A stretch of 60,580 nucleotides of DNA from Bacteroidia bacterium (GTDB lineage Bacteria; Bacteroidota; Bacteroidia; J057; JAIXKT01): positions 53,723-114,302 of the forward strand of contig JAIXKT010000019.1 of NCBI GenBank assembly GCA_026932145.1, given 5' to 3'. Position numbers and translations under genes: made by a program. Under the pieces are notes generated by a model, which worked only from the letters and a program-made list of their open reading frames with translations, searched no databases and was not told where the DNA came from. Below, one piece after another: positions 46,656 through 60,580 of the stretch. How positions within the stretch are numbered: position 1 is the stretch's first letter; every line of letters begins with the position of its first letter.

Positions 46656-46771
46656 TGGTTGGAAAAATGGGAAAGTGCCAAAATGTGCGGCTGGGTGCGC
46701 GGGGTTAGCTGTCCTTTTATGTATACACTGTCTGTCTATAGTTGCACGTTGCCAAAGGGTTTCTTATAACG
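46656..46771 (-). repeat. 116-bp exact direct repeat flanking the IS1634-like element
   Basis: This segment is identical to 44853-44968. It starts exactly at the right end of the IS and ends in the TTATAAC of attC-like site E. It is the distal part of the conserved cassette leader, cut by the IS. Confidence 0.9.
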
Positions 46772-46895
46772 GGTTGCAGATTTGCGATGGGCGGGCTTTT
46801 CACCACAAATGTTGATGCGAAGCACAAAACTTTCGGCTACCACTAAACTGTCTGCGGAGCACGAAACCCCGCCTATTGCAAATGTGCTGTTGAAC
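46764..46895 (-). other. attC-like site E
   Basis: A 132-bp imperfect palindrome. On the plus strand it starts TTATAAC and ends GTTGAAC; the inner arms GCAGATTTGCGATGGGCGGG and CCCGCCTATTGCAAATGTGC pair with three to four mismatches. Size and layout fit an integron attC. The cassette lying to its right would have to end in GTTGAAT at 49,292-49,298, which differs by one base. Confidence 0.7.
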
Positions 46896-46974
46896 TAAAC
46901 CTTCGGTAGCCACAAACAAAACAAAAATACACATATATCTCGTATAAACAAACTCACTTTAAATAAAAAATATT

Positions 46975-47883
46975 ATGAGTTTACAAAAAAAGCGATACAA
47001 TACCATTGTATCACAAGCCAAACAAAACGTGATAGGCTTTTCATCGGCCTATCAAAAATTTTTAGAACGTGTAAGTATTGATCAAAACAGCAAGAGCCTG
47101 ATTACGAACTACAGTCGTAGCATAGCAGCTATTGCCTTACACTTTAACCGTGTGCCTCATCAAGTAGGTGTAGATGAAATCAACGGATATTTGTATCGAA
47201 TGATTCACCAGGAAAAGCAATCCATCAGTTATTTTAAACAAGCGGTGTATGGTTTACGGCATTGGTTTAGATTGTTTGGTATGGAAGAAAAAGCTATTCA
47301 AATGCCAAGCATTAAGAAAGAACAAAAACTGCCGGTAGTTTTATCAAAAGAAGAGTGTAAAGAACTATTTAAAACACCACGCCTCTTAAAGCACCGATAC
47401 CTGCTTGCCTTTGCTTATGGCTGTGGTATGCGGATGAACGAACTGCGTATGCTTAAAATAGCCGATGTTGATTTACAACGCAAACTCGTTCATATCAAAA
47501 ACGGTAAAGGTAAAAAACAACGCTATGTTGTTTTATCTCAACTACTCGCACAAAAATTTGAAATGTATCTCAAAGAAGTAAAACCCAAAGTATATTTATT
47601 TGAAGGACAAACCCCTAGTGAACCCATGGGCGAACGAAGCATACAATATGTAATTAACGAAGCCCTGCAAAAAACAAATATTAAAAAACAAGTAAGTATG
47701 CACACTCTCCGCCACAGCTTTGCCACACATTTGCTCGAAGATGGCATTGATGTACATTCCATTCAGCGTTTACTAGGACATAGTGATTTACGAACAACGA
47801 TGGTTTATTTACATGTAGCTCAAATGAAACTTCGCCCTGTTCACAGTCCATTGGATAGTTTATATAACTTACCACTTGAGTAA
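46975..47883 (+). CDS. Tyrosine recombinase of the IS91-like element
   Basis: A 302-residue tyrosine recombinase. The N-terminal SAM-like domain (residues 15-105) is followed by the catalytic domain with the Arg in AYGCGMRMNELRMLKIAD, Lys in IKNGKGKKQRYVVL, H-x-x-R in MHTLRHSFATHLLEDG, His in RLLGHSDLRTTMVYLHV, and Tyr in the latter. All catalytic residues are present. The extra helix between patches II and III that marks integron integrases is lacking: only about 50 ordinary residues lie there, as in XerC/D. The gene overlaps the transposase gene by 8 bp, the arrangement known from IS91-family elements of Bacteroidota, so it belongs to the element. Confidence 0.9.
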   Translation: MSLQKKRYNTIVSQAKQNVIGFSSAYQKFLERVSIDQNSKSLITNYSRSIAAIALHFNRVPHQVGVDEINGYLYRMIHQEKQSISYFKQAVYGLRHWFRLFGMEEKAIQMPSIKKEQKLPVVLSKEECKELFKTPRLLKHRYLLAFAYGCGMRMNELRMLKIADVDLQRKLVHIKNGKGKKQRYVVLSQLLAQKFEMYLKEVKPKVYLFEGQTPSEPMGERSIQYVINEALQKTNIKKQVSMHTLRHSFATHLLEDGIDVHSIQRLLGHSDLRTTMVYLHVAQMKLRPVHSPLDSLYNLPLE

Positions 47884-49042
47884 ACCAACTTATGAGTTGG
47901 CAACTATCATTGCAGAGTACAAAACTACATTTACACAAAAACATCAGCCCTTAAAATACCATTTAAAAGTACTCAATGCCATTGAGCATTGCCGTACTGC
48001 TTATTTTGGAGGTCATGTAGATAAATGTAATTCATGTAATCATATACGCATTAGCTACAACTCTTGCCGTAACAGGCATTGCCCTAAGTGCCAAAACACC
48101 AACAAAGAACGTTGGATAGAAGCACGCGAAAGAGATTTATTATCTACAACTTATTTTCATGTGGTGTTTACCCTGCCACAGGAACTAAACACGTATTGCC
48201 TTAAGTACCCTAAAGACTTGTACGATATTTTATTTGCTTCAAGTAAAGAAACCATTGAAACATTTGCAAATGACCCTAAGCACTTGGGCGCACAAACAGG
48301 GATGGTAAGCGTACTTCACACATGGGGGCAAAACTTATCACTGCATCCGCATGTGCACATGATTGTTCCCGGAGGAGGAATAACACCGGCAGGTTATTGG
48401 AAAACGGCAAAGAGCAAAGGAGAATTTTTGTTTCCTGTAGATTCAATGAGCATAGTTTACAAAAACAAGTTTATGGAAAAGTTGATACTGTTTTTGAAGA
48501 AAGAAAAGATATATCTCGATGTTCAGCTAAGAAGAAAACTCTACCAACAAGAATGGGTAGTATATGCCAAACAACCCTTTGGTGAACCAAAACAGGTAAT
48601 TGAATATTTGGGTAGGTATTCTCACAAGATTGCGATTAGTAATTACCGCATAAAAAATGTGAGCAATGGTAAAGTAAGTTTTACTTACAAAGATTACGCA
48701 CATGGAAATGTACAAAAACTCATGACTTTAGATGCAGAAGAATTTTTGCGTAGGTTTTGTTTACACATCCTTCCGCCAAAGTTTATGAAAATACGTCATT
48801 ACGGCATTTTGGCAAGTCGTTGCAAACCCATGCTTCGCAAGCATCAATTTACACAGGGAATAATCATGCCAACCATAGAAAAGAAAACATGGAAAGAGAT
48901 TGCTAAAACAAAACTGAATTTTGATGCAGATAGCTGCCCACATTGCAAAACAGGAAAGATGATTAGGGTGTTTAGTTTTGATACCAATGCGCCACCGGAA
49001 ATTCTTCAACTCATTCAACATCAAAAAAAGATGAAAAAATAA
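47876..49042 (+). CDS. IS91-family transposase (HUH, Y2 type)
   Basis: A 388-residue rolling-circle transposase. The N-terminal zinc-binding domain has CNSCNHIRISYNSCRNRHCPKCQ split as C-x2-C ... C-x3-H-C-x2-C near residues 48-75; the HUH motif is in LHPHVHMIVPGGG near residue 155; the catalytic tyrosine region is VIEYLGRYSHKIAISNYRI near residue 240; and a C-terminal C-x2-C (CPHCKTGKM) follows. It starts at a TTG that overlaps the recombinase stop, so translation is coupled. The frame is intact, so the element may be functional. Confidence 0.93.
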   Translation: MSKPTYELATIIAEYKTTFTQKHQPLKYHLKVLNAIEHCRTAYFGGHVDKCNSCNHIRISYNSCRNRHCPKCQNTNKERWIEARERDLLSTTYFHVVFTLPQELNTYCLKYPKDLYDILFASSKETIETFANDPKHLGAQTGMVSVLHTWGQNLSLHPHVHMIVPGGGITPAGYWKTAKSKGEFLFPVDSMSIVYKNKFMEKLILFLKKEKIYLDVQLRRKLYQQEWVVYAKQPFGEPKQVIEYLGRYSHKIAISNYRIKNVSNGKVSFTYKDYAHGNVQKLMTLDAEEFLRRFCLHILPPKFMKIRHYGILASRCKPMLRKHQFTQGIIMPTIEKKTWKEIAKTKLNFDADSCPHCKTGKMIRVFSFDTNAPPEILQLIQHQKKMKK

Positions 49043-49100
49043 TTTAGGAACATCACCGTATTTGCTTGCAAAAAGCGAACAGGCATTGTATTGAACAAAC

Positions 49101-49339
49101 ATCAAAAATAAAACTAAAAATAACTAAAACACGATAAGAAATAAGAAAAAAACAACCATAAACACAACACAAACTCCATAAAACACCCCTCAAAGGGTAC
49201 TAAAAAGTACACTTGCTTATTGTTTAAAGGCACAACTAATTTTTTAAAACCCCATAATATATTTTACTTGCAACTGAGCTCCGGAAGCTTTATTCAACAC
49301 AGGATTAAATCAAAGCATAGCTTCGTTTAATCCCTATAT
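49101..49339 (+). repeat. Direct-repeat copy 3: 3' terminal region of the IS91-like element
   Basis: Starts 58 bp after the transposase stop. It is nearly identical over most of its length to 39255-39511. It ends in the hairpin GGATTAAA ... TTTAATCC with the inner arms AAAGC/GCTT, then TATAT, directly before GTTATAA at 49340. Confidence 0.88.
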
Positions 49340-49420
49340 GTTATAAGCTGCCAATTACGCCACAATGCTTTCAAAGGTCAAAATAAAGCACTTACTCTGC
49401 GCTGAACCTGTGCGGTTGGA

Positions 49421-49487
49421 TTGCAAGCTCCTTTTATTTTTATTGCGATGGCATTTTGCATTTGCTAAAAATAAAATGTGCTTGCAA
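49421..49487. repeat. 67-bp imperfect palindrome
   Basis: Outer arms TTGCAAGC (49421-49428) and GCTTGCAA (49480-49487) and inner arms TTTTATTTTTA and TAAAAATAAAA are exactly complementary, separated by small bulges, with a GC-richer centre. It lies between the GTTATAA at 49340 and the T9SS pair. It lacks GTT-type ends, so it is not counted as attC; a relict site or terminator is possible. Confidence 0.75.
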
Positions 49488-49544
49488 TTAAGGTGGTATG
49501 TTTTATTCTAACTTTTAATTATGATACCACTTTAATTCTCTAAG

Positions 49545-49800
49545 GTCGTCTGGATCTTTTAGTTTTTGATATTGTCATTTTAGAATTCGGTTTAGATATT
49601 TTAGATACCAATTTCGAGCTTTCAGATATTGTCTTGGAGATTCTTAGATATTAATTCGGAGGTTTTAGATTCGTCTTTGGAGGTTTCATATGTCGGTTTC
49701 GAGTCTTTAGATAACGATTTGGAGCTTTCAGATGGAAATTCCGTCATGATAGATGTCGTTTTCAGGTCTTTAGTTTTCAAGCTGTCAGTTTTTAGTTTGC
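49545..49800. repeat. Degenerate tandem repeat, about 21 bp period
   Basis: A run of decayed units of the form ATCTAAAA-nnTCC-AA (minus strand), spaced about 20-23 bp. The open minus-strand frame 49622-49840 yields only a repetitive Ser/Lys/Thr peptide with no start context or homology, so I regard it as non-coding. The 400 bp between the palindrome and the next gene contain nothing else I can support. Confidence 0.55.
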
Positions 49801-49920
49801 CCAAAATTATGAATGAAAAGTAACAATTTGGAGCTGTCAAGAATTAGTATTCAAAATACCCTTTAGGACAAGTTTTGCGCTCAAATGATTTTGCAGTGAA
49901 AATAGTTGAATAGAATTTGA

Positions 49921-49955
49921 AATAAATGAGCCTCAAAATTTGAGGCTCATTTATT
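49921..49955 (-). terminator. Terminator overlapping the stop of the T9SS gene
   Basis: A near-perfect 17-bp palindrome (AATAAATGAGCCTCAAA / TTTGAGGCTCATTTATT) overlaps the stop codon of the minus-strand gene at 49954. The U-rich end favours termination of the T9SS pair. Confidence 0.7.
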
Positions 49956-51306
49956 ATTGCTTTAACAATTTTAAAGTTTGTACATTCTTTGATGATTGCA
50001 CCCTGATGAAATAAATACCACTTGACAAATTACTAATATCTAATTTCTGATTTGAGCCTAAATTAGTTTTTATTATCAATTGTCCGGCCATATCTGTTAC
50101 TATAATAGTTGAATTAGATTCGAAATGCAAAAAATTGAGATATTCGTTTGCAGGATTGGGATAAACTACCATACCTTCAGCTTCATTATTCTGCTTCTCA
50201 TCAATTCCTGTTACTCTGCAACCCAAAGGTTGAAGGCTGAGCATTTTTGCTAAATAGTTTATAGTATCGCTATTTAGCGTATCATAACCGCAGCCTGTAA
50301 AAATGGTATCGTGGTAAATATCCACTACTAAATTAGTTGCAATAAAATCCTGTGTAGGAAAATTACACCATTTTTCACCATCCCATTTGGCCAAATGTTT
50401 AGCATAAAGACTGTCTGCATAATCAAAAACCCCGGCAACATACAATTCATTGTTGTGTATTTTCATATCATGCACATGAGGTGCGCTGTTATTAGGATTT
50501 GTGCCGGTTCTAAGTCCCATACCCAAATCAGACCATGAACTGCCGTTCCATTTTTGTATGCCATCACCAGTATTACTTGCTGAACGCCATATTATACCGG
50601 CAATAATTAATTCATTTTTATATGCAAGTAGTTTATCTACAAATGAAGTTCCACCAAGGATGCCATTTCCTACCATTTGCCATGCTCCATTTTTGTAAAC
50701 AACAATGTCATTATAATCTGTTGTTCCAATATAAAAGCTGTTCCCACCCAAATATAAATCTCCTTGATATATTTCTGCATCGTAAACATAAGCACCTACA
50801 TAAGGGAAACTAAAAACCGGTTTCCATGATGAGCCTGTCCACTTAGCAATACCGTTACAAAGCAGGCTGTCCACCATAGAAAAAGCACCCATAGCATATA
50901 AAGTATCATTAAGCACTTTTACATTCCAAACGAAGCCATTGAAATTTCCGAATGAATACCAGTTAGTTCCGTCATACCTTGCAATATTATTTACATCAAC
51001 GCCATTAATTTTTGAAAAAAAACCAGATACAATAATATCGTTGTTAAATCTTGTAATTCCACGTGTCTGATTATCAGCGTTACCAATATTATTCCATGTG
51101 ACACCGTCATAATATAATATTGCTAACTTACTGAATGACGGATTTAATACTTGACCCGCTGCATAAAGCCTGTCCGAAATGGTGTCATTAAAGAGACAGT
51201 TGATTTGAAGTGTAGTGTATGGGGTTCCTGCGCTTATCCATCCATTTTGAGCAAAAGCCATTTTTGCCGTTAAGGCAAAAATGGCTATGGAAGTCTTCAA
51301 TTTCAT
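49954..51306 (-). CDS. T9SS type-A sorting-domain protein with beta-propeller-like repeats
   Basis: A 450-residue secreted protein, signal MKLKTSIAIFALTAKMAFAQ. The mature part is made of repeats containing LYAAGQVLN, NIARYDGTNWYSFGNF, GIAKWTGSSWKPVF, IQKWNGSSWSDLGMG and LAKWDGEKWCNF, a W-x-G-x-x-W pattern that forms a beta-propeller (the so-called Galactose-oxidase/kelch-like arrays of Bacteroidota). The C-terminus (GMVVYPNPANEYLNFLH ... SGIYFIRVQSSKNVQTLKLL) is a type-A sorting domain. It overlaps the preceding 1,273-residue gene by 4 bp, so the two are one operon and one predicted integron cassette. Confidence 0.87.
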   Translation of the reverse strand: MKLKTSIAIFALTAKMAFAQNGWISAGTPYTTLQINCLFNDTISDRLYAAGQVLNPSFSKLAILYYDGVTWNNIGNADNQTRGITRFNNDIIVSGFFSKINGVDVNNIARYDGTNWYSFGNFNGFVWNVKVLNDTLYAMGAFSMVDSLLCNGIAKWTGSSWKPVFSFPYVGAYVYDAEIYQGDLYLGGNSFYIGTTDYNDIVVYKNGAWQMVGNGILGGTSFVDKLLAYKNELIIAGIIWRSASNTGDGIQKWNGSSWSDLGMGLRTGTNPNNSAPHVHDMKIHNNELYVAGVFDYADSLYAKHLAKWDGEKWCNFPTQDFIATNLVVDIYHDTIFTGCGYDTLNSDTINYLAKMLSLQPLGCRVTGIDEKQNNEAEGMVVYPNPANEYLNFLHFESNSTIIVTDMAGQLIIKTNLGSNQKLDISNLSSGIYFIRVQSSKNVQTLKLLKQ

Positions 51307-54300
51307 TGCTTGATAAATTTAGAGCTGATTACTTTATTGGTATAATTCGCCTTTATTAAATAGATACCGGCAGGAATGTTTTCAATATTCACAGCAGCTG
51401 AATTTCCTGAAACATTGTTTTTTGAAATCTGCGTGATTATCTGCCCGTTTACATTCAATAAATCCAGTGTAATTAAGGTTTCTGAATAAGGTACTTTAAT
51501 ATTCAGCCTGTTATTGGAAGGGTTGGGATAAATTAAAATGCCATTGTTCGTTATATCCTTATATTCTTCGTCAATGCCGTCAATTAAATCAGTACAGATT
51601 AAAGAAATGAAAGCATCAGAATTACCTCCCATAAAGTATTCTTCGTAATATGCACCATTACCTGAATCATAAGTAGGAAAGGTAACTGTTGAATCATCAG
51701 CGTTTGTTTTGCCTACCATGTATAGCTGGTTGCCCGCAGCTGCAAGGTCATAAATTAATTCATAATCTGTTACAAACGGTTGAGAGGTTTTTCCGCCAAT
51801 ATAGGTGGAGTAAATTATATCTTCGTTTTCATTAAATACATTAAGTATTCCATCGGTATATGGATAAACATAGACATTACCATTAACTGAGCTTTGCGTA
51901 TAAGCGCTTTGCTGCGGCACAATATTCAAATCAAAATCGTTTGTTCCACCTGCTATATACTTGCGGTTTTCATTGTCAACAGCAATGGAGGTAAAGGCTG
52001 TTTTACCCGTTTCGCTGTAATAAGTACTCCATAAGGTATCGCAGTTTGCAGCAGAAAACTTCATAATATAACCGTCTGTGGAAGAAAAAGTATGGTCGTT
52101 AAAACCTGTTGAGCTGTACAAAGGAAAATCGCTGCTGTAAGTAGATCCGACAAGGTAAATATTATTATTATCATCAGCAGCAATTTTTGTACCTGCGGTA
52201 CCGAATATAGAATATTCATCGCCCGAACCACCTATATAAGCTGACCAAATTAAACTGTTTGCTGGCGAAAACTTACAGATAAAATCATCCGTAGTGCCTC
52301 CTCTTAAACTGTCCTTATATGAGCCCGGTGGACTTAATGTTGGAAAATTTGAGCTATAGGTATTGCCCGAAACTATTACATTATTATTTCCGTCAGTTAT
52401 TACAGATGAAACAAATTCAGCAGCACTTCCACCAATGAACGAGCAGTAAAGCAATGAATCATTTTGGTCAAATCTTGCAATAAAGCCATCGCTGCTGCCT
52501 GCATTGGTTTGATAATAGGCGCTGCCCCAGGTTTTCAGAGGAAAATTACCCGTTTCTCCTTTACCGCACAGCAATAAATTATTGTTCTGGTCAAAAGCAA
52601 GTGAATAGCCATAGTCGCTGCCTGTGCCTCCAAAGTGCGTTGCCCACCTGATAGTACCTATTGGATCAAACCTGACTACAAAGGCATCAGTAGGTCCATT
52701 TATAATACTATCGAGATAAGCATTCCCATTTGGTACCCAGTTAAATAAGGCAGATTTGGTATAGCCTGTGGTGTAAACACTGCCATTGCTTTTAACTTTT
52801 ACATCGTAAACAGACTGTTCGTTTGAACCACTGTAAAAGGTACTCCATTCTCTTTTGTGGTCAGAATCAAATTTAGTTGTTACCATATTTGTGTTCCAAC
52901 TACCAAAATTTTGTCCAAGTGTATTTGGAAAACCATGACTACTCGTTAACCCACCGGTGTAAGCATTACCTGAGGCATCGGCATCTACAGCATAAATTTC
53001 ATCAAAACCTTCTCTCCCAAAATAAGAGCTCCAGCATAAGCCTGTTGCCTGGCTGGCCGCCTGCCTTTCCTTCTGCTTCGCCATAATCACCAACGTATTG
53101 CTTGTATTGTAGGTAAAAGGTACAAAATGCCAGTGCCCGTTAACCGTATCTTTATAAATATTAAGCGGCTGCATGGTGTTGGGGATTACTGCTCCTGAAG
53201 CATCTACCTCGTAAGCCACAAGCGTATCGTATTTTAAAGTGCCGATGCCTGTGTGTATGCTGTAGGTGCCGGGGCTGTGGGTAATGCTGTCGGCTCCTGC
53301 AAGCCGCATCACTATATCTGTGTAATCTGCTCCTCTGTTAATTACAAAGTAATGTTTGGCTCCTGTCTTATTGCTTGTAAAATAAACATTAATGCCTTTG
53401 TATAGCTTTTCTATAAAAAGACCTTTGTAGCCGTGTACATCTACTACTCCGCTTGCGCAATGTGGCAAATAAAAGTTGTGGTAATGGCTGCTTTCTTTTC
53501 CTTTAGGATATACTTCGTTTGGTAAAATTGCTGCACTGCCTACCGGTATAGCTCCCGGAACAGGTACAGGAGGTGCATCTGTTATAAAGTTCATAGCCAC
53601 TTTATAAAGTGTATCGGTTGTGGCCGTATCGTTGTCTATTTTACTAAATACGTAATTTACCCCATAGTTATCAAAATACATGGCGGGGCTTTGGTTTTGG
53701 GTATAGTATGCTACCTCTGTTGCCACGCCTCCCGTATCATTCGCTAACTGCCCATTGTTTGGGTAATACCACATATTACCCGGCTCTTCGTTAAAGGCAT
53801 CGGGTATTTCTTCATACGTGGCTTCGCCATAGGCTATGGTTACATACTGCCAGGTCGTGGCGCTTATTTTACTTTGCCCGCTCACATAAACCAGTCCGTC
53901 ATGTTTTTCAATTCCTGTGGCTATATCATCGCTGTTATATGCTCCGTTAAATCTTATGGTCCATAAGGTGTCTCCGTTTTCTTTGTAGCCTATGGTGGCA
54001 AAATCTTTATTGCTGCCGTTGCTGCTTTCGCCTGTAATGTAAACATTATTATCATCACCCACAATCAGCCTGTTGGCTTTGTCCTCATGGTTGTAATTGT
54101 AATATCTTACCCACTGCTGTGTTCCTGTACTGTCGTATTTTATGGTGCAGTAATCATCATTGCCGCTGCTGTTTTTTGTTTGGCCTGTTACATATACATT
54201 GCCATAGTAATCTACTCCTAAAGAGTTGGCTATATCATCCTGGTGTGAGGTGTGATCGAATGTTCTTGTCCATTTTACATTTCCCTGGTAATCGAATTTT

Positions 54301-55124
54301 ATTGTTTTATAATCTAACCCGTTTGATAGTGTTGCTTCTGCTCCTGTAACATATACATTTCCGTTTACATCTGTTACTGCCTGTGTTAATTTATCAAAGC
54401 TGACTCCTGCTGATCGCAGTGTATCAACCGTGGTTCCTGCCGGTGTATATTGCAGCCTTGCATAATCATAGGTGGTAATGGTGCTTTGGCTGCCTCCATT
54501 TACAAATATGTTATTGTCGGCTATTTCTACGTTAAATGGAATATCATTCCCTAAGTAGTTGTATGTTTTTATCCATTGCTGACTTCCGCTGCTGTTTAAT
54601 TTTATAGTTGCATAATCAAATAAGGTCAGATACCCCATGCTTGCTCCGGTAACATAAATATTAGTGGTGTCAACAATAATGGCACTCACTATATCTGCCG
54701 CACTTCCAACTCCATTGTAGGTGTACGTCCAGAGCAAGGTGCCTGTGCTGTCGTATTTGAGCACTAAAAAATCGTAGTTATTGGTTGCATTTATATAGCT
54801 AAATCCGGCTACTATTAAATTCTGATTGCTGTCTATGGCAAGTGCTGTGGCCTGATCTCTGTAGTTTCCACTTCCCGTGTAGCTTATTGTAAATAGTGTT
54901 GCTCCATACTGGTCGTACTTTTTTATTTCAATATCTGGTCCTGTTAAGCTGTTAATTGAAGAGCCGGCTACATAAAGATTTCCGTTACCGTCTATAACAG
55001 TTGGTATTTTAAGCACCGTGTCCTGTAAGCCGAAAGTATCTGTCCAGATGGTTGTGGCCGTGTTTTGTGCTTTCAAGGTTATGGAAAAGGTCAAAGAAAT
55101 AATAATTATTATATATTTTTTCAT
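51303..55124 (-). CDS. Large SBBP-repeat T9SS surface protein
   Basis: A 1,273-residue secreted protein, signal MKKYIIIIISLTFSITLKAQ. Two groups of SBBP beta-propeller repeats are visible: an N-terminal group with NLYVAGSSIN, NIYVTGASMGY, NVYVTGAEATL, NVYVTGQTKNSSGNDDY and NVYITGESSNGSN, and a C-terminal group with WSSYFGREGFDEIYAVDADA, WATHFGGTGSDYGYSLAFD and WSAYIGGSGDEYSIFGTAG. Between them, residues about 440-690 lack the pattern. The C-terminus (ILIYPNPSNNRLNIKVP ... GIYLIKANYTNKVISSKFIKQ) is a type-A sorting domain. It resembles the core gene at 18671 in its SBBP repeats but has a different sorting domain and AT-rich codons. The upstream 280 bp contain the conserved leader. Confidence 0.88.
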   Translation of the reverse strand: MKKYIIIIISLTFSITLKAQNTATTIWTDTFGLQDTVLKIPTVIDGNGNLYVAGSSINSLTGPDIEIKKYDQYGATLFTISYTGSGNYRDQATALAIDSNQNLIVAGFSYINATNNYDFLVLKYDSTGTLLWTYTYNGVGSAADIVSAIIVDTTNIYVTGASMGYLTLFDYATIKLNSSGSQQWIKTYNYLGNDIPFNVEIADNNIFVNGGSQSTITTYDYARLQYTPAGTTVDTLRSAGVSFDKLTQAVTDVNGNVYVTGAEATLSNGLDYKTIKFDYQGNVKWTRTFDHTSHQDDIANSLGVDYYGNVYVTGQTKNSSGNDDYCTIKYDSTGTQQWVRYYNYNHEDKANRLIVGDDNNVYITGESSNGSNKDFATIGYKENGDTLWTIRFNGAYNSDDIATGIEKHDGLVYVSGQSKISATTWQYVTIAYGEATYEEIPDAFNEEPGNMWYYPNNGQLANDTGGVATEVAYYTQNQSPAMYFDNYGVNYVFSKIDNDTATTDTLYKVAMNFITDAPPVPVPGAIPVGSAAILPNEVYPKGKESSHYHNFYLPHCASGVVDVHGYKGLFIEKLYKGINVYFTSNKTGAKHYFVINRGADYTDIVMRLAGADSITHSPGTYSIHTGIGTLKYDTLVAYEVDASGAVIPNTMQPLNIYKDTVNGHWHFVPFTYNTSNTLVIMAKQKERQAASQATGLCWSSYFGREGFDEIYAVDADASGNAYTGGLTSSHGFPNTLGQNFGSWNTNMVTTKFDSDHKREWSTFYSGSNEQSVYDVKVKSNGSVYTTGYTKSALFNWVPNGNAYLDSIINGPTDAFVVRFDPIGTIRWATHFGGTGSDYGYSLAFDQNNNLLLCGKGETGNFPLKTWGSAYYQTNAGSSDGFIARFDQNDSLLYCSFIGGSAAEFVSSVITDGNNNVIVSGNTYSSNFPTLSPPGSYKDSLRGGTTDDFICKFSPANSLIWSAYIGGSGDEYSIFGTAGTKIAADDNNNIYLVGSTYSSDFPLYSSTGFNDHTFSSTDGYIMKFSAANCDTLWSTYYSETGKTAFTSIAVDNENRKYIAGGTNDFDLNIVPQQSAYTQSSVNGNVYVYPYTDGILNVFNENEDIIYSTYIGGKTSQPFVTDYELIYDLAAAGNQLYMVGKTNADDSTVTFPTYDSGNGAYYEEYFMGGNSDAFISLICTDLIDGIDEEYKDITNNGILIYPNPSNNRLNIKVPYSETLITLDLLNVNGQIITQISKNNVSGNSAAVNIENIPAGIYLIKANYTNKVISSKFIKQ

Positions 55125-55232
55125 GTGATTAAAATTAAGGATTTAATTTAAATTATTGATTTTTATTTTCTGTAAACAGAAATGTTCAAGGTGGTTTGAA
55201 TGATTGAAAATATAAGTCGAAATATAATCTAT

Positions 55233-55410
55233 ACTTTGGGGCTGGCGTGCGGTTGGTGAATTTGGGCTCTTTTACATTTTTATGTGCCGTTGCCTGTTGT
55301 GGTTGTGAAAATGGAAATGTGCCTAAATGTGCGGTTGCGCGCGTGGGCTTTTTTGGTTGAAGGTTGCTCCTGTCCGTCATGTTCGCAATGTCCTATTGGT
55401 TGCTTATAAC
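55233..55410 (-). repeat. Conserved cassette leader, copy 2
   Basis: Homologous to 44787-44967 (same strand, same position after GTTATAAG and before a T9SS gene). Here a 64-codon frame (55186-55380, minus strand; HLGTFPFSQPQQATAHKNV and KEPKFTNRTPAPKYR) is open; in copy 1 the matching frame reads HFGTFPFFQPQ, stop, then KNVKEPKFINRTPTPK. Either a small protein or a conserved RNA/DNA element. The function is unknown. Confidence 0.7.
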
Positions 55411-55535
55411 GTTTGGCAGCTTGGCGAAGTGGCGGATTTTGAAGCACTTACTTTCATTTTAGCACTAATGCTTATTTGAAAACCAAATGTTCAATTTAGC
55501 ACCGAACCCGCCATTTTGCCAAACTGCTGTTGTGC
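55404..55535 (-). other. attC-like site A
   Basis: Plus strand: TTATAAC, then arms CAGCTTGGCGAAGTGGCGG and CCGCCATTTTGCCAAACTG pairing with few mismatches, then GTTGTGC. Length 132 bp. On the minus strand its GCACAAC is the exact complement of the GTTGTGC that opens the cassette at 56803, and its GTTATAA is matched by TTATAAC at 49346-49340. Confidence 0.85.
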
Positions 55536-55546
55536 GTTCGGCATAA

Positions 55547-55999
55547 TTAATTCAAAAGTTCCCATTTTTCTTTATAAATATCAACGTTATCTCTGAAAGA
55601 CCTCATATCATTGTCATTGTGTTTTTGACCATTTCTTCCCGGTGTGTCTAACCAAGTTTGATGATTGTTTCTAACATTTTCAGCTAATTCAATACTAGGT
55701 ACAATATAAAAATCTGGTCTTTCAAATTCATCTTTAAGCATAACAAAAATATAAAAAAGGTCTTTACTCTTTATGTTTTCAGCCTTTTTATTTAATGGCC
55801 ATTTTTTTGATTTATTTTGAATTGTTTTTACTTGTATTGCAAATGTTTTAAATCCATTTGGTTCACAAGCTAATATGTCTACGCTATCATTATTTCGTAG
55901 TGTAATAGACGCCATAAAACCACGTCTTGATAATTCAGCTGCTACATAATATTCACCTGCAATTCCTGTAATTCCTTTGGAAAGTCTATTTGATATCAT
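55547..55999 (-). CDS. Putative PD-(D/E)XK nuclease
   Basis: A 150-residue protein with the core of the PD-(D/E)XK fold: the helix GITGIAGEYYVAAELSRRGF with Glu, the strand SVDILACEPNG with Asp, and FAIQVKTIQNKSKKWPLN with Q-x-K, in the order E-D-QxK near residues 15, 38 and 55. Similar small proteins are common in accessory DNA of Bacteroidota, sometimes as DUF4365-like or restriction-like nucleases. ATG 55999 overlaps the stop of the upstream gene in an ATGA, showing coupling; the in-frame ATG-less extension to 56023 is not needed. It ends 12 bp before attC-like site A. A defence role is possible but unproven. Confidence 0.7.
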   Translation of the reverse strand: MISNRLSKGITGIAGEYYVAAELSRRGFMASITLRNNDSVDILACEPNGFKTFAIQVKTIQNKSKKWPLNKKAENIKSKDLFYIFVMLKDEFERPDFYIVPSIELAENVRNNHQTWLDTPGRNGQKHNDNDMRSFRDNVDIYKEKWELLN

Positions 56000-56700
56000 A
56001 AATGTATATTCTTGTAAAACCAACCTATTGATTGACTTAAAATTGGTTTTGTTGAAACAGTAAATTTGTCTGATGGAAATGTATAGTCAATTTGCCCAAA
56101 CTCATTTTTTATAACAATTGCGTTTCCTATTATTTCAAGTTTGCCAACAGTTTCAAAATTGTTTGACGCTCTTAATACTTCCATATTTTCAGGATTATAT
56201 GTTTGTTCATCTGTCCACATTTCATACTTTCCCTTAATTCTATCTTGTTTACCACTTTCTTCTGTGTAATTTTGATAATCGTATTCAGTAAGTTTAATTA
56301 GGTTGCATATTTTAATAATTTGCAAACCGTTTGTAACTGGCGGATTTCCGAATTCAAGTTTAGCGTTTAATGATTTTTCTAAATCTTGTTTTGAATAACG
56401 AAGTTCGTCTGGTGTTACGCCTTGTTTGTTCAATGCGATGATGAGTTCATACAAAACATAATCTCTAAAATCTTCGTGAAGAGTTGTAAGATGAAGTCTA
56501 AACCAAGGATATTTAGAATTGATTAATTGAAAAGGTTGGTCGAAATTTTCGTATTCGCCTTTTTCGTTCACTTCTAATCCTTCGTCTGTCAAATCCATTT
56601 CGTTGTGATGATAAATGAATTTTTCTCCGTTTCGGTTTCGTTTGCGTTCAATTGTTAAGCTTCCGCCTTCTGCTAAAATTTCAAAAACTGTTTCTGTCAT
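55996..56700 (-). CDS. Hypothetical protein, partner of the nuclease
   Basis: A 234-residue protein without signal peptide or membrane helix. The start MTETVFEILAEGGSLTIERKRNRNGEKF resembles the small Bacteroidota proteins found in mobile DNA, and the region with FRLHLTTLHEDFRDYVLYELIIALNKQGV looks like a helical segment. No catalytic motif could be recognised. It is the first gene of its cassette, about 100 bp after attC-like site B, and overlaps the nuclease gene by 4 bp, so they probably act together. I do not assign a function. Confidence 0.7.
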   Translation of the reverse strand: MTETVFEILAEGGSLTIERKRNRNGEKFIYHHNEMDLTDEGLEVNEKGEYENFDQPFQLINSKYPWFRLHLTTLHEDFRDYVLYELIIALNKQGVTPDELRYSKQDLEKSLNAKLEFGNPPVTNGLQIIKICNLIKLTEYDYQNYTEESGKQDRIKGKYEMWTDEQTYNPENMEVLRASNNFETVGKLEIIGNAIVIKNEFGQIDYTFPSDKFTVSTKPILSQSIGWFYKNIHL

Positions 56701-56796
56701 ATTTTATTTTTCATCAAAGTTAGTTTGTCTTTACGTCAAAATGTGTCGTCCTATTTGTCAATGTTGAGTTTTGTGCGACTGCTCGGAAATACTGAC

Positions 56797-56928
56797 GCAC
56801 AACGGTTCGCGTGTATGTGCAGTAGCGGATTAGAAACACGTTCCTGTCCGATTAGCACAAGGTTTCTTAGAGGCACAGACCTTCGATTTACCACTTCACC
56901 CGCTATTGCTACATACACGCTGTTATGC
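56797..56928 (-). other. attC-like site B
   Basis: The strongest palindrome of the set: GCACAAC, arms GTGTATGTGCAGTAGCGG and CCGCTATTGCTACATACAC (one extra base and one mismatch), then GTTATGC; 132 bp overall. On the minus strand its GCATAAC is the exact complement of GTTATGC at 57886-57880, and its GTTGTGC is matched at 55535-55529. Confidence 0.9.
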
Positions 56929-56977
56929 CTTCGTTGTTCTTTTCTGTCAATTAATTTACTCGACATTTGTGATAGTT

Positions 56978-57853
56978 TTATTTCTTTTTTTCCTTAGTCC
57001 ATTGCCAATAGAAATAAGGAAAAATCGGTAAAGGAAATACTTGTTGAGCGTCAATGTCAGGGAAGAAACCATTAATGGCTAATATTTCAATTCTCATATT
57101 TCTTAAAACACCAAATCGGTTCTTATAAAATGGTGCAACTCTAAATCCATAAGTCAATTGATGTTTTCGAGGGACATTTTCTAAAAATGTCAAGGTTGAA
57201 CCATAAGTATATGCTAAATGATAGCTAATCCATTTTGATGGTCTGTAATCGAACCCTATTGAAAAATTTGGATTCCAACTTTTTTGAAATGTTTTGGATT
57301 GAAAATTCAACGAATCGTTGTTTCGCAAAATAAGTTCTCCAATATAATCTAGTCCAGCTGATAGATTAATGTAATATTTGTCTTTGAAATTATATCCCAA
57401 TGATGGTTTCAGATGAAAGTAAGAGCCGTTTTCCCAAACAGTCAGAGTGGGGGTTTCAAATCTTTGGAGTGTGTCCCAAAAATGCACAAACATTGCTTCA
57501 ATGCCAATTGTTGGTATAATCCCTTGTTGTTCATTAAATCTATACCTTAAGTTCAAACTTGGGATTGGTTTTTTTAAGTCAGAAAATGCACCGTAAAGCC
57601 ACGGTAACAAATCTATCTGTGCAGTCAATCTATCAGTTATACCATAAAATGCCCAACTAGGGAACGGTAGTGTTTGAATAGATTGTGCATAAATCCATTC
57701 TCCTTTTTTTAGGGTGTAGGGTGTAATTGCGTCTATGGGGTGAAGATACGAGTCGTCATTTAATGGGTTTTCCTTCTTAGTCAAACCAACTTGAGCTATG
57801 GCGTTGTTCGTCAGAAAAACTAAGAGTAATATAATTGTCAGAGATGTTTTCAT
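56978..57853 (-). CDS. Outer-membrane beta-barrel-like protein
   Basis: A 291-residue exported protein. The signal peptide is MKTSLTIILLLVFLTNNAIAQ; the ATG at 57853 was chosen over a GTG seven codons upstream because the signal starts there. The mature protein has alternating strands typical of an outer-membrane barrel (ITPYTLKKGEWIYAQSIQTL; GIIPTIGIEAMFVHF; KDKYYINLSAGLDYIGEL; WISYHLAYTYGSTLTFLENV) and ends in FPYFYWQWTKEKKK rather than a T9SS sorting domain. It has no recognisable family. It is the sole gene in its cassette, starting 27 bp after attC-like site C and ending 50 bp before site B. Confidence 0.75.
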   Translation of the reverse strand: MKTSLTIILLLVFLTNNAIAQVGLTKKENPLNDDSYLHPIDAITPYTLKKGEWIYAQSIQTLPFPSWAFYGITDRLTAQIDLLPWLYGAFSDLKKPIPSLNLRYRFNEQQGIIPTIGIEAMFVHFWDTLQRFETPTLTVWENGSYFHLKPSLGYNFKDKYYINLSAGLDYIGELILRNNDSLNFQSKTFQKSWNPNFSIGFDYRPSKWISYHLAYTYGSTLTFLENVPRKHQLTYGFRVAPFYKNRFGVLRNMRIEILAINGFFPDIDAQQVFPLPIFPYFYWQWTKEKKK

Positions 57854-57879
57854 ATTTCTGGTTTGTCCTTTCACAATGA

Positions 57880-58077
57880 GGCATAACGGTCCGGCAGCTT
57901 GGCGAAGGAGCGGACTAACGAAGCCGAAATTTTCAATATAGCACTACCGTAAGCAAAACCGCTTGGTGTTGCGAACTTACAATTTTTATCGCAAAAACCA
58001 AGCGGTTTTTGCGACAATCGAAGACGAAACGTTCAACTTAGACGGAACTCCGCTCTTTTGCCAAACTGCTTGTTATA
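57880..58077 (-). other. attC-like site C with internal hairpin
   Basis: Plus strand: GCATAAC, arms CAGCTTGGCGAAGGAGCGG and CCGCTCTTTTGCCAAACTG, then GTTATAG. At 198 bp it is longer than the others because the centre holds a second hairpin (AAACCGCTTGG/CCAAGCGGTTT, about 57954-58006). On the minus strand its CTATAAC matches GTTATAG at 58842-58836. Confidence 0.85.
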
Positions 58078-58120
58078 GGCTGTGGTTCTGGTCATTGCAT
58101 TGTTTTTTAACATTTGCTAA

Positions 58121-58765
58121 TTAATCATCAACACGTTTAATATCGTTGTAATATTCTTCTTTCAAATCTTCAATCTTGTCTTTCAATTCTTTTCTCAATT
58201 TTCCAGGAAGTGTTTTCAGCTTTTTCAATTGGAAAGCCAGTACAATAGCTGAAATACCCACACAGATAAACGATAAAGCCGTCATCACGACTAATGATAT
58301 TCCTGTGAAAATCGGATTTGCGATAAGTAAGAATGAAAATATAATCCCCAAAATACTCAAGATTGCTAGATTACCCCATTTTATCACACCGTAATTTTTC
58401 AGTTCAAAGGAAAATCCCAATCCTTGAAAAGAACGGAACAGTAAACTAAATCCTATGAAAAATGGCAATGTAGTTGCTGCAACGTCAGGTTTTGATACTA
58501 AAACGATACCGATAAGTAAACTAAAAATTCCACTTGTAAGATACCAACCCCAACCCTCGAGTTCATCTTTATTCTGAACGGAAAACACTATTTCCAAAAT
58601 TCCTGAAAATAGGAAAGTCAGACTAAAAAAAATGGTCAGCGTTAAATAAGTCGCAACAGGAACGCTAAATAAATAGCCCCCAAGTAGGATAAATAATACA
58701 CCAATGATTGCTGGAATATACCAGTTTTTTACGGTGTTTCGAACTGTTTTAAGAAATGTTGCCAT
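58121..58765 (-). CDS. HdeD-family (DUF308) membrane protein
   Basis: A 214-residue protein with six hydrophobic helices in DUF308/HdeD style: WYIPAIIGVLFILLGGYLF, then TLTIFFSLTFLFSGILEIVFSV, GWYLTSGIFSLLIGIVLV, FFIGFSLLFRSFQGLGF, GNLAILSILGIIFSFLLIANP, and a last one ending in ALSFICVGISAIVLAFQL. HdeD-type proteins are known for acid-stress islands but most members are uncharacterised. The C-terminal 35 residues are highly charged (LKKLKTLPGKLRKELKDKIEDLKEE broken here for length) and probably cytoplasmic. It has its own -7 box and is the only gene of its cassette. Confidence 0.85.
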   Translation of the reverse strand: MATFLKTVRNTVKNWYIPAIIGVLFILLGGYLFSVPVATYLTLTIFFSLTFLFSGILEIVFSVQNKDELEGWGWYLTSGIFSLLIGIVLVSKPDVAATTLPFFIGFSLLFRSFQGLGFSFELKNYGVIKWGNLAILSILGIIFSFLLIANPIFTGISLVVMTALSFICVGISAIVLAFQLKKLKTLPGKLRKELKDKIEDLKEEYYNDIKRVDD

Positions 58766-58789
58766 ACGATTTGATTAATTTAATTGTTA

Positions 58790-58797
58790 CAAAATTA
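58790..58797 (-). promoter_or_regulatory. -7 promoter box (TAATTTTG) inside the HdeD cassette
   Basis: Minus-strand TAATTTTG fits TAnnTTTG, 25 bp before the HdeD start codon (58765) and within the cassette, so this gene need not rely on a promoter of the integron. Confidence 0.55.
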
Positions 58798-58835
58798 TAT
58801 TTATTTACTATTCACGGCTTTTTTTATACCATAGC

Positions 58836-58848
58836 CTATAACGGCAGT
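58836..58848 (-). other. Partial attC-like site D, cut by IS1182
   Basis: Plus strand CTATAAC then GGCAGT. Minus strand ACTGCC-GTTATAG, the same CTGCC-GTTAT end as in sites A and C. The rest is replaced by the inserted IS1182-like element; the other half would lie beyond 60573. Confidence 0.65.
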
Positions 58849-60573
58849 CTGTCTAATAACTTCCTTTCTCCGTTAATTTCTTTCACTAATCTACACATTA
58901 ATTTCAATTTTAAGCAACTTTAAAAAGTCTTTTTTCAAAATAGATTTCTCTAAAATGAAAAATAAAGTGCTGTGAAAACGGCTTAAATTTGCTTGTGGAG
59001 AGCGAAAAATAAAAGCCAAGTTCTCTTAGGAACTTTTTGAGCAGGTTTGGGTCTAAAATATTGAAGATTCTACGGAGGTTGAATGCGGTAAAAATCAATC
59101 CAACATCTGCCGAAGCTCTATTGATACCTTGTTTTGTCATGATGTAAGAATAATCCCATTGTCTTTTGATGATTCCAAATGGGTGTTCTACAATCGCTTG
59201 CCGTTTTTGATATTGTTCGTATCGCTCTTGGATGCGTTGTTTGTTTTCCTCGAGTAAATGTGCATAAGCCGTGCGTTCAATGATTCTTCCTCTATTTCTG
59301 GAGGTTTTGGTGCAACGCTCGTAAACAGGACAAGTTTTGCAGGCGGTAGTTTTGTATTGTTGCATTGCCACAGACTCCTGCTTTTTTCGCCCTTGGTGAT
59401 TTCTGCTTTTTTGATACCAATTTCCGTTGCTAGAAAGCGTTTCTCCTTGCGGACAAGTATAAGTGTTGTTTTCGCTATTGTAAATAAAGTTGGAAACATT
59501 GTAGGAAGGATCGGGAGCCATGGAAGAAGATGAGATGTCGGGAACGGCCACCAAGACTTCTACACCCAATTCGTCTGCTTTCACAAATTCTGAACCTGTG
59601 TGATAGCCCTTGTCAAACAGGGCTGTAAAATCATTGTGCTCGAGTACTTCTACTGCCTGCTCCAACATACTTCCCATAGCTTTGGAATCGTTTTCATTGG
59701 TAACTTCAAAATTGATGGGAATGTTATGTTTAGCATCAACGGTTGATTGCACATTGTATGCAACTTCAGTAATGTAATTGCGAATAATGAGCTGTCTGCT
59801 ATCCGGGTCTGAGGTGGATATTTGGACTTCACCCGATTCTTCGAGCTGTTTTTCTAAGTCGTGGTATTTTTGCTTGTGAAAGAGGTGTTCTTCGATTTTC
59901 TTTTGTGCTTTTGCCTTTTGTTCGCTATCACCATCTTCTTGCGCAAGAACAGCGTTATATTCTTCCAGCTTTGCTTCAATGTAAGCCAAATGACGGTCGA
60001 TTTTCTTTTGATTAAAGTTGTTCTTTTTTGAATTCTGTGCTCGCAATTTTGTGCCATCACCTGCCAAGAGTTTACCGCCAATCAACTCAAAGTTTTTGGC
60101 AAGTTCTACCGTTGCCCGAAACACTTTCTTAATAGCCTTTGGATTATCTTTTCTAAAGTTGGAGATCGTGTTGTGGTCAGGTACTAAATTCCGCATCAAC
60201 CATTTTACTTCCATATTGCGCACACATTCTTTTTCTAATTGTCGAGAAGAGCGAATGCGGTTCAAATAACCGTAGATAAACAACTTCAACAAATCCGAAG
60301 GATGATAAGAAGGTCTTCCGCCTTGCTCGTTTTGTTTTGATTCCGAAAACCCAAATTCACCCAAAGGCAAACTATCCACAAACAAATCAATCAACCGAAC
60401 TTCGTTATCTTGCTCAATGAGTTCTTCCAAACTGTAAAACTCCACTTGATTTCTATTTTTACCAATGATATATTTCATAAGGCAAATATACTGAAAATCA
60501 AACGGATAAGCTAATTATTTAGAGATAAGTTATTAACAATCAATGAGTTAATAAAGAAGAGGTTTTTAGACAG
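58849..60573. mobile_element. IS1182-family insertion sequence
   Basis: The element is bounded by imperfect inverted ends beginning CTGTCTAA-(T/A)-AAC-(T/C)-TC: CTGTCTAATAACTTC at 58849 and its complement ending at 60573 (GAGGTTTTTAGACAG). One transposase gene fills it. The outer few bases differ between the ends, so the border is accurate only to a few bases; the right flank has just seven bases in the window, so no target duplication can be checked. Confidence 0.85.
58910..60478 (-). CDS. IS1182-family transposase
   Basis: A 522-residue DDE transposase. The DUF772 N-terminal domain has GGRPSYHPSDLLKLFIYGYL and MRNLVPDHNTISNFRKDN; the catalytic core has LAGDGTKLRAQNSKKN (first Asp), VDAKHNIPINFEVTNENDSK, FDKGYHTGSEFVKADELGVE (second Asp), and VEHPFGIIKRQWDYSYIMTK (E region), with a cysteine-rich TCPQGE ... 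CKTCPVYERCTK insert typical of IS1182. The reading frame is intact. It starts 95 bp inside the right end of the element. Confidence 0.95.
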   Translation of the reverse strand: MKYIIGKNRNQVEFYSLEELIEQDNEVRLIDLFVDSLPLGEFGFSESKQNEQGGRPSYHPSDLLKLFIYGYLNRIRSSRQLEKECVRNMEVKWLMRNLVPDHNTISNFRKDNPKAIKKVFRATVELAKNFELIGGKLLAGDGTKLRAQNSKKNNFNQKKIDRHLAYIEAKLEEYNAVLAQEDGDSEQKAKAQKKIEEHLFHKQKYHDLEKQLEESGEVQISTSDPDSRQLIIRNYITEVAYNVQSTVDAKHNIPINFEVTNENDSKAMGSMLEQAVEVLEHNDFTALFDKGYHTGSEFVKADELGVEVLVAVPDISSSSMAPDPSYNVSNFIYNSENNTYTCPQGETLSSNGNWYQKSRNHQGRKKQESVAMQQYKTTACKTCPVYERCTKTSRNRGRIIERTAYAHLLEENKQRIQERYEQYQKRQAIVEHPFGIIKRQWDYSYIMTKQGINRASADVGLIFTAFNLRRIFNILDPNLLKKFLRELGFYFSLSTSKFKPFSQHFIFHFREIYFEKRLFKVA

Positions 60574-60580
60574 TTTGACG

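Follow-up and report, generated by a model that had tools for sequence, protein, structure and literature searches.

The closest described relatives of the system studied here are the sedentary chromosomal integrons, such as that of Vibrio cholerae or, among the Bacteroidetes, that of Salinibacter ruber (PMC9024848): an integrase gene next to attI, scores of cassettes in one-orientation tandem, and attC hairpins of species-typical length with R''/R' boxes and a G/TTRRRY crossover. Complete integrons were believed to be nearly absent from Bacteroidota (PMC9024848), and the published definition and surveys of integrons require a match to PF00589 together with an IntI-specific profile (PMC9668308). 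The window, i.e. the whole stretch of 60,580 nucleotides that was analysed (Bacteroidia bacterium, GCA_026932145.1, contig JAIXKT010000019.1, positions 53,723 to 114,302), carries part of a cassette array that resembles these integrons in all the respects just listed. Unlike theirs, its integrase is devoid of the IntI-specific domain (58-62 residues against 100) and has an extra N-terminal domain, its attCs have no extra bases in the L'' arm, and its attI has a conserved motif of its own. We consider it very probable that this is a distinct lineage of Bacteroidota integrons, with a large sedentary chromosomal array and an integrase, here called patch-less, with its own attI. The sequence features that suggest it are the anatomy of the array, the complementarity of each attC to the start of its own cassette (own-start rule), the covariation of the attC stems, the attI, the linkage of integrase and array, the absence of both I2 and extra bases, and cassettes that are repeated or shared.

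The cassette array

On the minus strand, the R' heptamers GTTATAG (58842-58836), GTTATGC (57887-57881), GTTGTGC (56803-56797) and GTTATAA (55410-55404) are complementary, in this order, to the R'' heptamers CTATAAC (58078-58072), GCATAAC (56928-56922), GCACAAC (55535-55529) and TTATAAC (49344-49338). An earlier inspection of the letters alone (the sequence-only reading) had taken these pairs for the marks of four integron cassettes; all four are present, including the last one, whose attC is cut by an IS91-type insertion sequence (IS). The three complete attCs of the window, those of cassettes 1 to 3, and the other features of the array are as follows (ORF, open reading frame).

58836-58842, minus strand: R' GTTATAG of an IS-split attC, start of the HdeD-like cassette; complementary to R'' CTATAAC (58072-58078)
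58079-58842, minus strand: cassette 1, DUF308 (HdeD-like) ORF 58121-58765 (PF03729, E 8.7e-23)
57881-58078, minus strand: attC of cassette 1, 198 nt, R'' CTATAAC, R' GTTATGC (own-genome model, E 1.2e-7)
56929-57887, minus strand: cassette 2, 298-aa ORF 56978-57874; own start against R'', 4/4 variable bases
56797-56928, minus strand: attC of cassette 2, 132 nt, R'' GCATAAC, R' GTTGTGC (model E 6.3e-18)
55536-56803, minus strand: cassette 3, ORFs 55996-56700 (234 aa) and 55547-56023 (158 aa); own start against R'', 4/4
55404-55535, minus strand: attC of cassette 3, 132 nt, R'' GCACAAC, R' GTTATAA (model E 5.2e-24)
49338-55410, minus strand: cassette 4, about 6 kb, ending with R'' TTATAAC (49338-49344); its start GTTATAA is complementary to this R''
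46764-46887, minus strand: rest of the attC of cassette 4, R' GTTATAA at 46764-46770 (model E 9.1e-17; fold z -2.3, -2.4)

Flanks included, the start of cassette 1 matches its R'' at 14/15 bases. The sequence-only reading had proposed to fold the sites as single strands; their z-scores range from -2.3 to -5.6, the lowest being that of the attC of cassette 1 (-5.6 for the bottom strand, -4.7 for the top one). This 198-nt site has a long terminal loop in which a second long palindrome is nested (57953-58011). The ORF of cassette 2 has no match in Pfam, and neither Pfam nor PADLOC returned anything for the two ORFs of cassette 3. Cassette 4, far above the usual size of cassettes, encodes two proteins with type IX secretion system sorting, of 1273 aa (51303-55124, SBBP repeats) and 450 aa (49954-51306).

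The array runs on past the window, to the end of its contig (C19) at 122525. A scan for R''/R' pairs by plain complementarity initially missed most sites, and was followed by a scan tolerating gaps and wobbles, then by a covariance model trained on 35 attCs of this genome. At E < 1e-4 our model finds about 58 matches, spread over some 20 of the 66 contigs, mostly 131-134 nt long (about 132 nt) and in one orientation per contig. Compensatory changes affect 16/19 stem pairs among the 35 sites, therefore it is the structure, not the sequence, that is conserved.

The own-start rule, asserted from four cassettes, extends well beyond them. We counted ungapped, non-"empty" cassettes with ordinary genes on the sampled contigs of this genome (n=19): the four variable bases of R'' are complementary to the start of their own cassette in 13, and to the next start in none; shuffled starts gave 1.0 on average and never more than 6 in 20,000 trials. 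Sites disrupted by IS91 are among the exceptions, as are, probably, missed ones. In other genomes the rule holds for 43/50 cassettes (next start 2/50, shuffle maximum 12), and for all 11 of Flavobacterium difficile. One could still see in these sites mere dispersed palindromes (terminators, REP-like repeats, IS remnants) and no integron at all, stem-loops and IS elements being frequent here. This is hardly credible: it is contradicted by the own-start complementarity, here and in other genomes, by the stem covariation, by the uniform length and orientation of the attCs, and by identities between species that are exact to the cassette. The chromosomal cassette array that the sequence-only reading had recognised in Bacteroidota is thus supported by the own-start rule, the attC model and covariation together.

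The crossover point is indicated by a repeated cassette. About 20 near-identical copies (97-100%) of an ORF-less 278-bp cassette, GTTGAGCGACATT...AATGTCGCTCAAC, with its long attC, lie behind a variety of attCs, and the R' that comes next differs from copy to copy, which places the crossover at the G/TT of R'. The attC of this cassette is an unusual palindrome of about 206 nt, and the copies (L016 7789-8348 and some 20 others on C20, C26, C53, C59, C60, C14 and C24) are in places arranged in tandem.

A probable patch-less integrase and its attI

The sequence-only reading had also suggested searching for an integron integrase beyond the window, and counted the lack of any intI in the genome against an array. 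For the canonical enzyme this lack is real. No canonical IntI reaches the TIGR02249 cut-off in this genome (best match 102 bits against 265), apparently because the cognate integrase is patch-less and lies with its own attI on another contig, C15. Among the five tyrosine recombinases of the genome, two of which are linked to IS91 elements, the one of C15 (P0001; L080 5437-6591, minus strand) is followed divergently by attI (L080 6663-6679) and then by two cassettes, with attCs at L080 8410-8539 and 9522-9654; the first of these cassettes has an R'' complementary to the GTTAGCC at L080 6679. An array that reaches far beyond the window, a fourth attC split by IS91 and a non-canonical integrase, the latter being the real novelty, are what the sequence-only reading missed.

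The protein of C15 aligns with XerA without gap, and with IntI4 as two blocks separated by 24 residues where IntI4 has 67. Against TIGR02249 the patch-less integrase obtains 188 bits (below 265), in two stretches flanking a gap at 180-240; against the XerA-type model NF040815 it obtains 217 bits, slightly below the cut-off of 220. Its extra N-terminal domain covers about 65 residues. DUF5710 comes nearest to it (1.1e-5, 25.5 bits for a Pfam cut-off of 26.5) and is a lead only; HARP, sub-threshold with a best value of 0.024, was rejected as an assignment and likewise kept as a lead. Xer enzymes act on double-stranded dif sites. The XerA/XerC-like recombinases (4a8e, 5hxy) share with the patch-less integrase a continuous similarity over the full length of the core, and the fold, but they have no attI/attC array and lack the SPLD C-terminus that is common to the clade and IntI.

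Besides C15, 13 loci have an attI beside the integrase. The site reads TTGCGTATAT-N5-A|GTTRRRY, or a close variant, between the integrase gene and the first cassette and 60-160 bp from the gene; it is on the array side in both layouts, whether the array is divergent from the gene or downstream and parallel. Its GTT and the next bases match the R'' of the first cassette at 13-14/15 positions in most cases. A strict motif, TTGCGYNTA(T/A)-N5-AGTTR, matches 14 times, always less than 350 bp away from an integrase, and has no further match in 2.0 Mb.

Homologues of the C15 integrase occur in 167/345 Bacteroidia genomes, with a close group at identities of at least 50%. In a tree of 112 proteins the patch-less enzymes form a clade (n=33, SH-aLRT 98), 23 of which are linked to an array, while canonical IntI forms a separate clade (support 100), as does the IS91 integrase. 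Arrays of attCs adjoin close-group genes in, among others, F. difficile, F. enshiense, F. cellulosilyticum, Kaistella palustris and Parapedobacter soli. At about half of the loci the array is downstream of the integrase and parallel to it, like in the "reverse" integrons of Spirochaetes (PMC9668308); but the spirochaete enzyme is described as an IntI, thus with the specific domain, and here both layouts coexist within one patch-less clade. The closest homologue of the C15 integrase (66%; G282, L111 3594-4712) is broken by stops, with an attI and one attC remaining.

Under the published definition (PMC9668308) the array would count as a CALIN, i.e. a cluster of attC sites lacking integron integrase in the IntegronFinder classification; unlike a CALIN, this genome does have a platform with attI and recombinase, and only the diagnostic domain is absent. 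An ordinary CALIN might nevertheless be supposed, whose cassettes were brought by a canonical IntI since lost or left unassembled, the patch-less gene being nearby by chance or for another element: the assembly is split at repeats into 66 contigs, and canonical IntI is present in 105/395 genomes sampled across the phylum. We regard this as improbable, as IntI is above the cut-off in none of the 19 array-bearing Bacteroidia genomes, the conserved attI motif is found only beside the patch-less gene, the linkage of integrase and array recurs across the clade, and the attCs differ in structure from those at canonical loci. It is even less likely that another recombinase of the host, XerCD or the IS91-linked integrase, moves the cassettes while the C15-type protein only resolves or regulates. 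The number of tyrosine recombinases in the genome and the insertion of IS91 elements exactly at the R'' core of attC speak for it; yet attI and the first cassettes adjoin the C15-type gene and not the others, and the IS91 integrase belongs to a separate clade.

Several observations weigh against a patch-less integron lineage. The draft assembly has C15 and C19 as separate contigs and does not join the platform to the array of the window. Two members of the clade (L112, L146) have no attC within reach, and four (L113, L139, L142, L143) have no attI motif; for several other attC-less members the contig itself ends on the array side (e.g. L121, L122, L123, L124, L138). The attCs of other genomes were found with the model trained on this one, which favours similar sites; a gap-tolerant scan of these genomes gave the same kind of attC. 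In genome G357 attCs devoid of extrahelical bases lie near a canonical IntI, and a patch-less homologue is also present there. Finally recombination itself is something that we infer from sequence.

Some exchange between genomes seems recent. This genome (C26:9650-10603), F. enshiense and G100, which belong to three families, share one cassette, attC included, at 98-99% DNA identity, and in the latter two the identity spans exactly one cassette end to the other. The integrases of these genomes are only 55-57% identical in protein; this difference speaks for a recent transfer of single cassettes. Such sharing between families reveals an active route of gene exchange. Besides, a stretch of 4.5 kb (L263 4511-8969; C24:1277-5737) is 88% identical between this genome and G602, which comes from another group of the same phylum and holds both kinds of integron.

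The I2 helix and the extrahelical bases

In known integrons the I2 helix docks the extrahelical bases of attC, and deleting it abolishes the activity of IntI1; it is said to have enabled the shift of the integrase from double- to single-strand recombination (PMC7790495). The extrahelical bases play a role in recognition by IntI (PMC3053210), and the insertion, although "not fully conserved" in a subgroup of integron-like recombinases, was held essential for integron function (PMC8138268). Because deleting I2 kills IntI1, direct proof of its role is lacking (PMC7790495).

In the patch-less clade the catalytic K motif and the HxLRH motif are separated by 58-62 residues (30/33 members readable by pattern), against 100 in 9/10 readable canonical IntI of the same phylum. 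In an AlphaFold model of the enzyme from F. difficile (mean pLDDT 83.5), residues 259-276, where I2 is expected, form no helix, and the solved folds nearest to this model are XerA and IntI4. The attCs follow the same pattern: 44/46 sites at canonical loci of the phylum carry two to four additional bases in L'', whereas none of 115 patch-less sites has at least two, and 87/115 have none on either side. Genomes with both kinds of integrase (G548, G602, G357) show attCs free of extrahelical bases beside the patch-less gene. The spacers measure 1 and 5 nt, like those of canonical attCs. Predicted stability favours the bottom strand in 33/40 and 59/75 sites, in part because two conserved G.T wobbles turn into A.C mismatches on the top strand.

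We lean towards the view that, in a separate Bacteroidota lineage, attC hairpins are recombined with neither I2 helix nor extrahelical bases, I2 being thus not required. In the reading that we consider very probable, the window holds the distal end of a large sedentary integron of the chromosome, whose cassettes, of the form TTRRRY-gene-attC(R''...), would be collected at the attI next to the integrase on C15, and excised and inserted at the G/TT of R'. The patch-less integrase presumably catalyses the exchange on a folded single attC bottom strand, cut between G and TT. The choice of the strand might depend on the conserved G.T wobbles of the bottom strand and on the 1/5-nt asymmetry of the spacers. 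The attCs would have retained the R''/L''...L'/R' hairpin plan without the bases docked by I2, and the extra N-terminal domain, weakly and sub-threshold DUF5710/HARP-like, may take over or help the recognition of the hairpin.

If the recombination of hairpins without I2 is true, single-strand recombination of cassettes does not need the domain by which integron integrases are defined. The question of I2 becomes directly testable with a natural enzyme that lacks this helix and is paired with attCs lacking the bases docked by it, and F. difficile and F. enshiense are cultured hosts of patch-less integrons. As surveys identify IntI by its extra domain, such integrons were scored as CALIN or missed, and an entire group of them appears to have escaped notice; a search of open PMC papers gave no description of patch-less integrons.

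Insertion sequences and other genes

Two insertion sequences split attCs of the array.

46888-49343, plus strand: IS91-type element, 2456 bp (Y2_Tnp, Zn_Tnp_IS91), boundaries from the comparison of two identical copies
58843-60580, minus strand: IS1182-like IS, transposase 58910-60478 (DUF772/DDE_Tnp_1_6), running past the window

The IS91-type element encodes its own tyrosine recombinase (46975-47883) and a Y2 transposase (47876-49042). It is inserted in the GTT core of the R'' box and severs the fourth R'' (49338-49344) from the attC at 46764-46887, which explains why this R'' has no adjoining stem; joining the flanks of the element restores a normal attC, TTATAACAGCACATTTGCAATAGGCGGG...GCCCGCCCATCGCAAATCTGCAACCCGTTATAA. 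That the fourth heptamer (49340) was a chance match had been considered, and was dropped once the boundaries of IS91 were mapped. A second, identical copy lies at C19:118137-120592 (L015 4138-6593), and of a third copy the end is present where the contig stops (L015 8475-8526). All three insertions of this recombinase-bearing element are at one identical point, the GTT core of an attC R''; it may use attC as a target. The IS1182-like element sits in the right arm of another attC, whose right half is the R' at 58842 and whose left half is beyond the window on C19 (L015 395-520).

Outside the array, 41023-39533 encodes a DUF4143-like AAA ATPase that matches the PADLOC candidate PDC-S01. Defence-like genes are found on cassettes: a PvuRts1I-like modification-dependent nuclease, a YhcG-type nuclease (PDC-S02) and an AriA/OLD-like ATPase (L016 16549-17397, 17452-18564 and 8377-9336).

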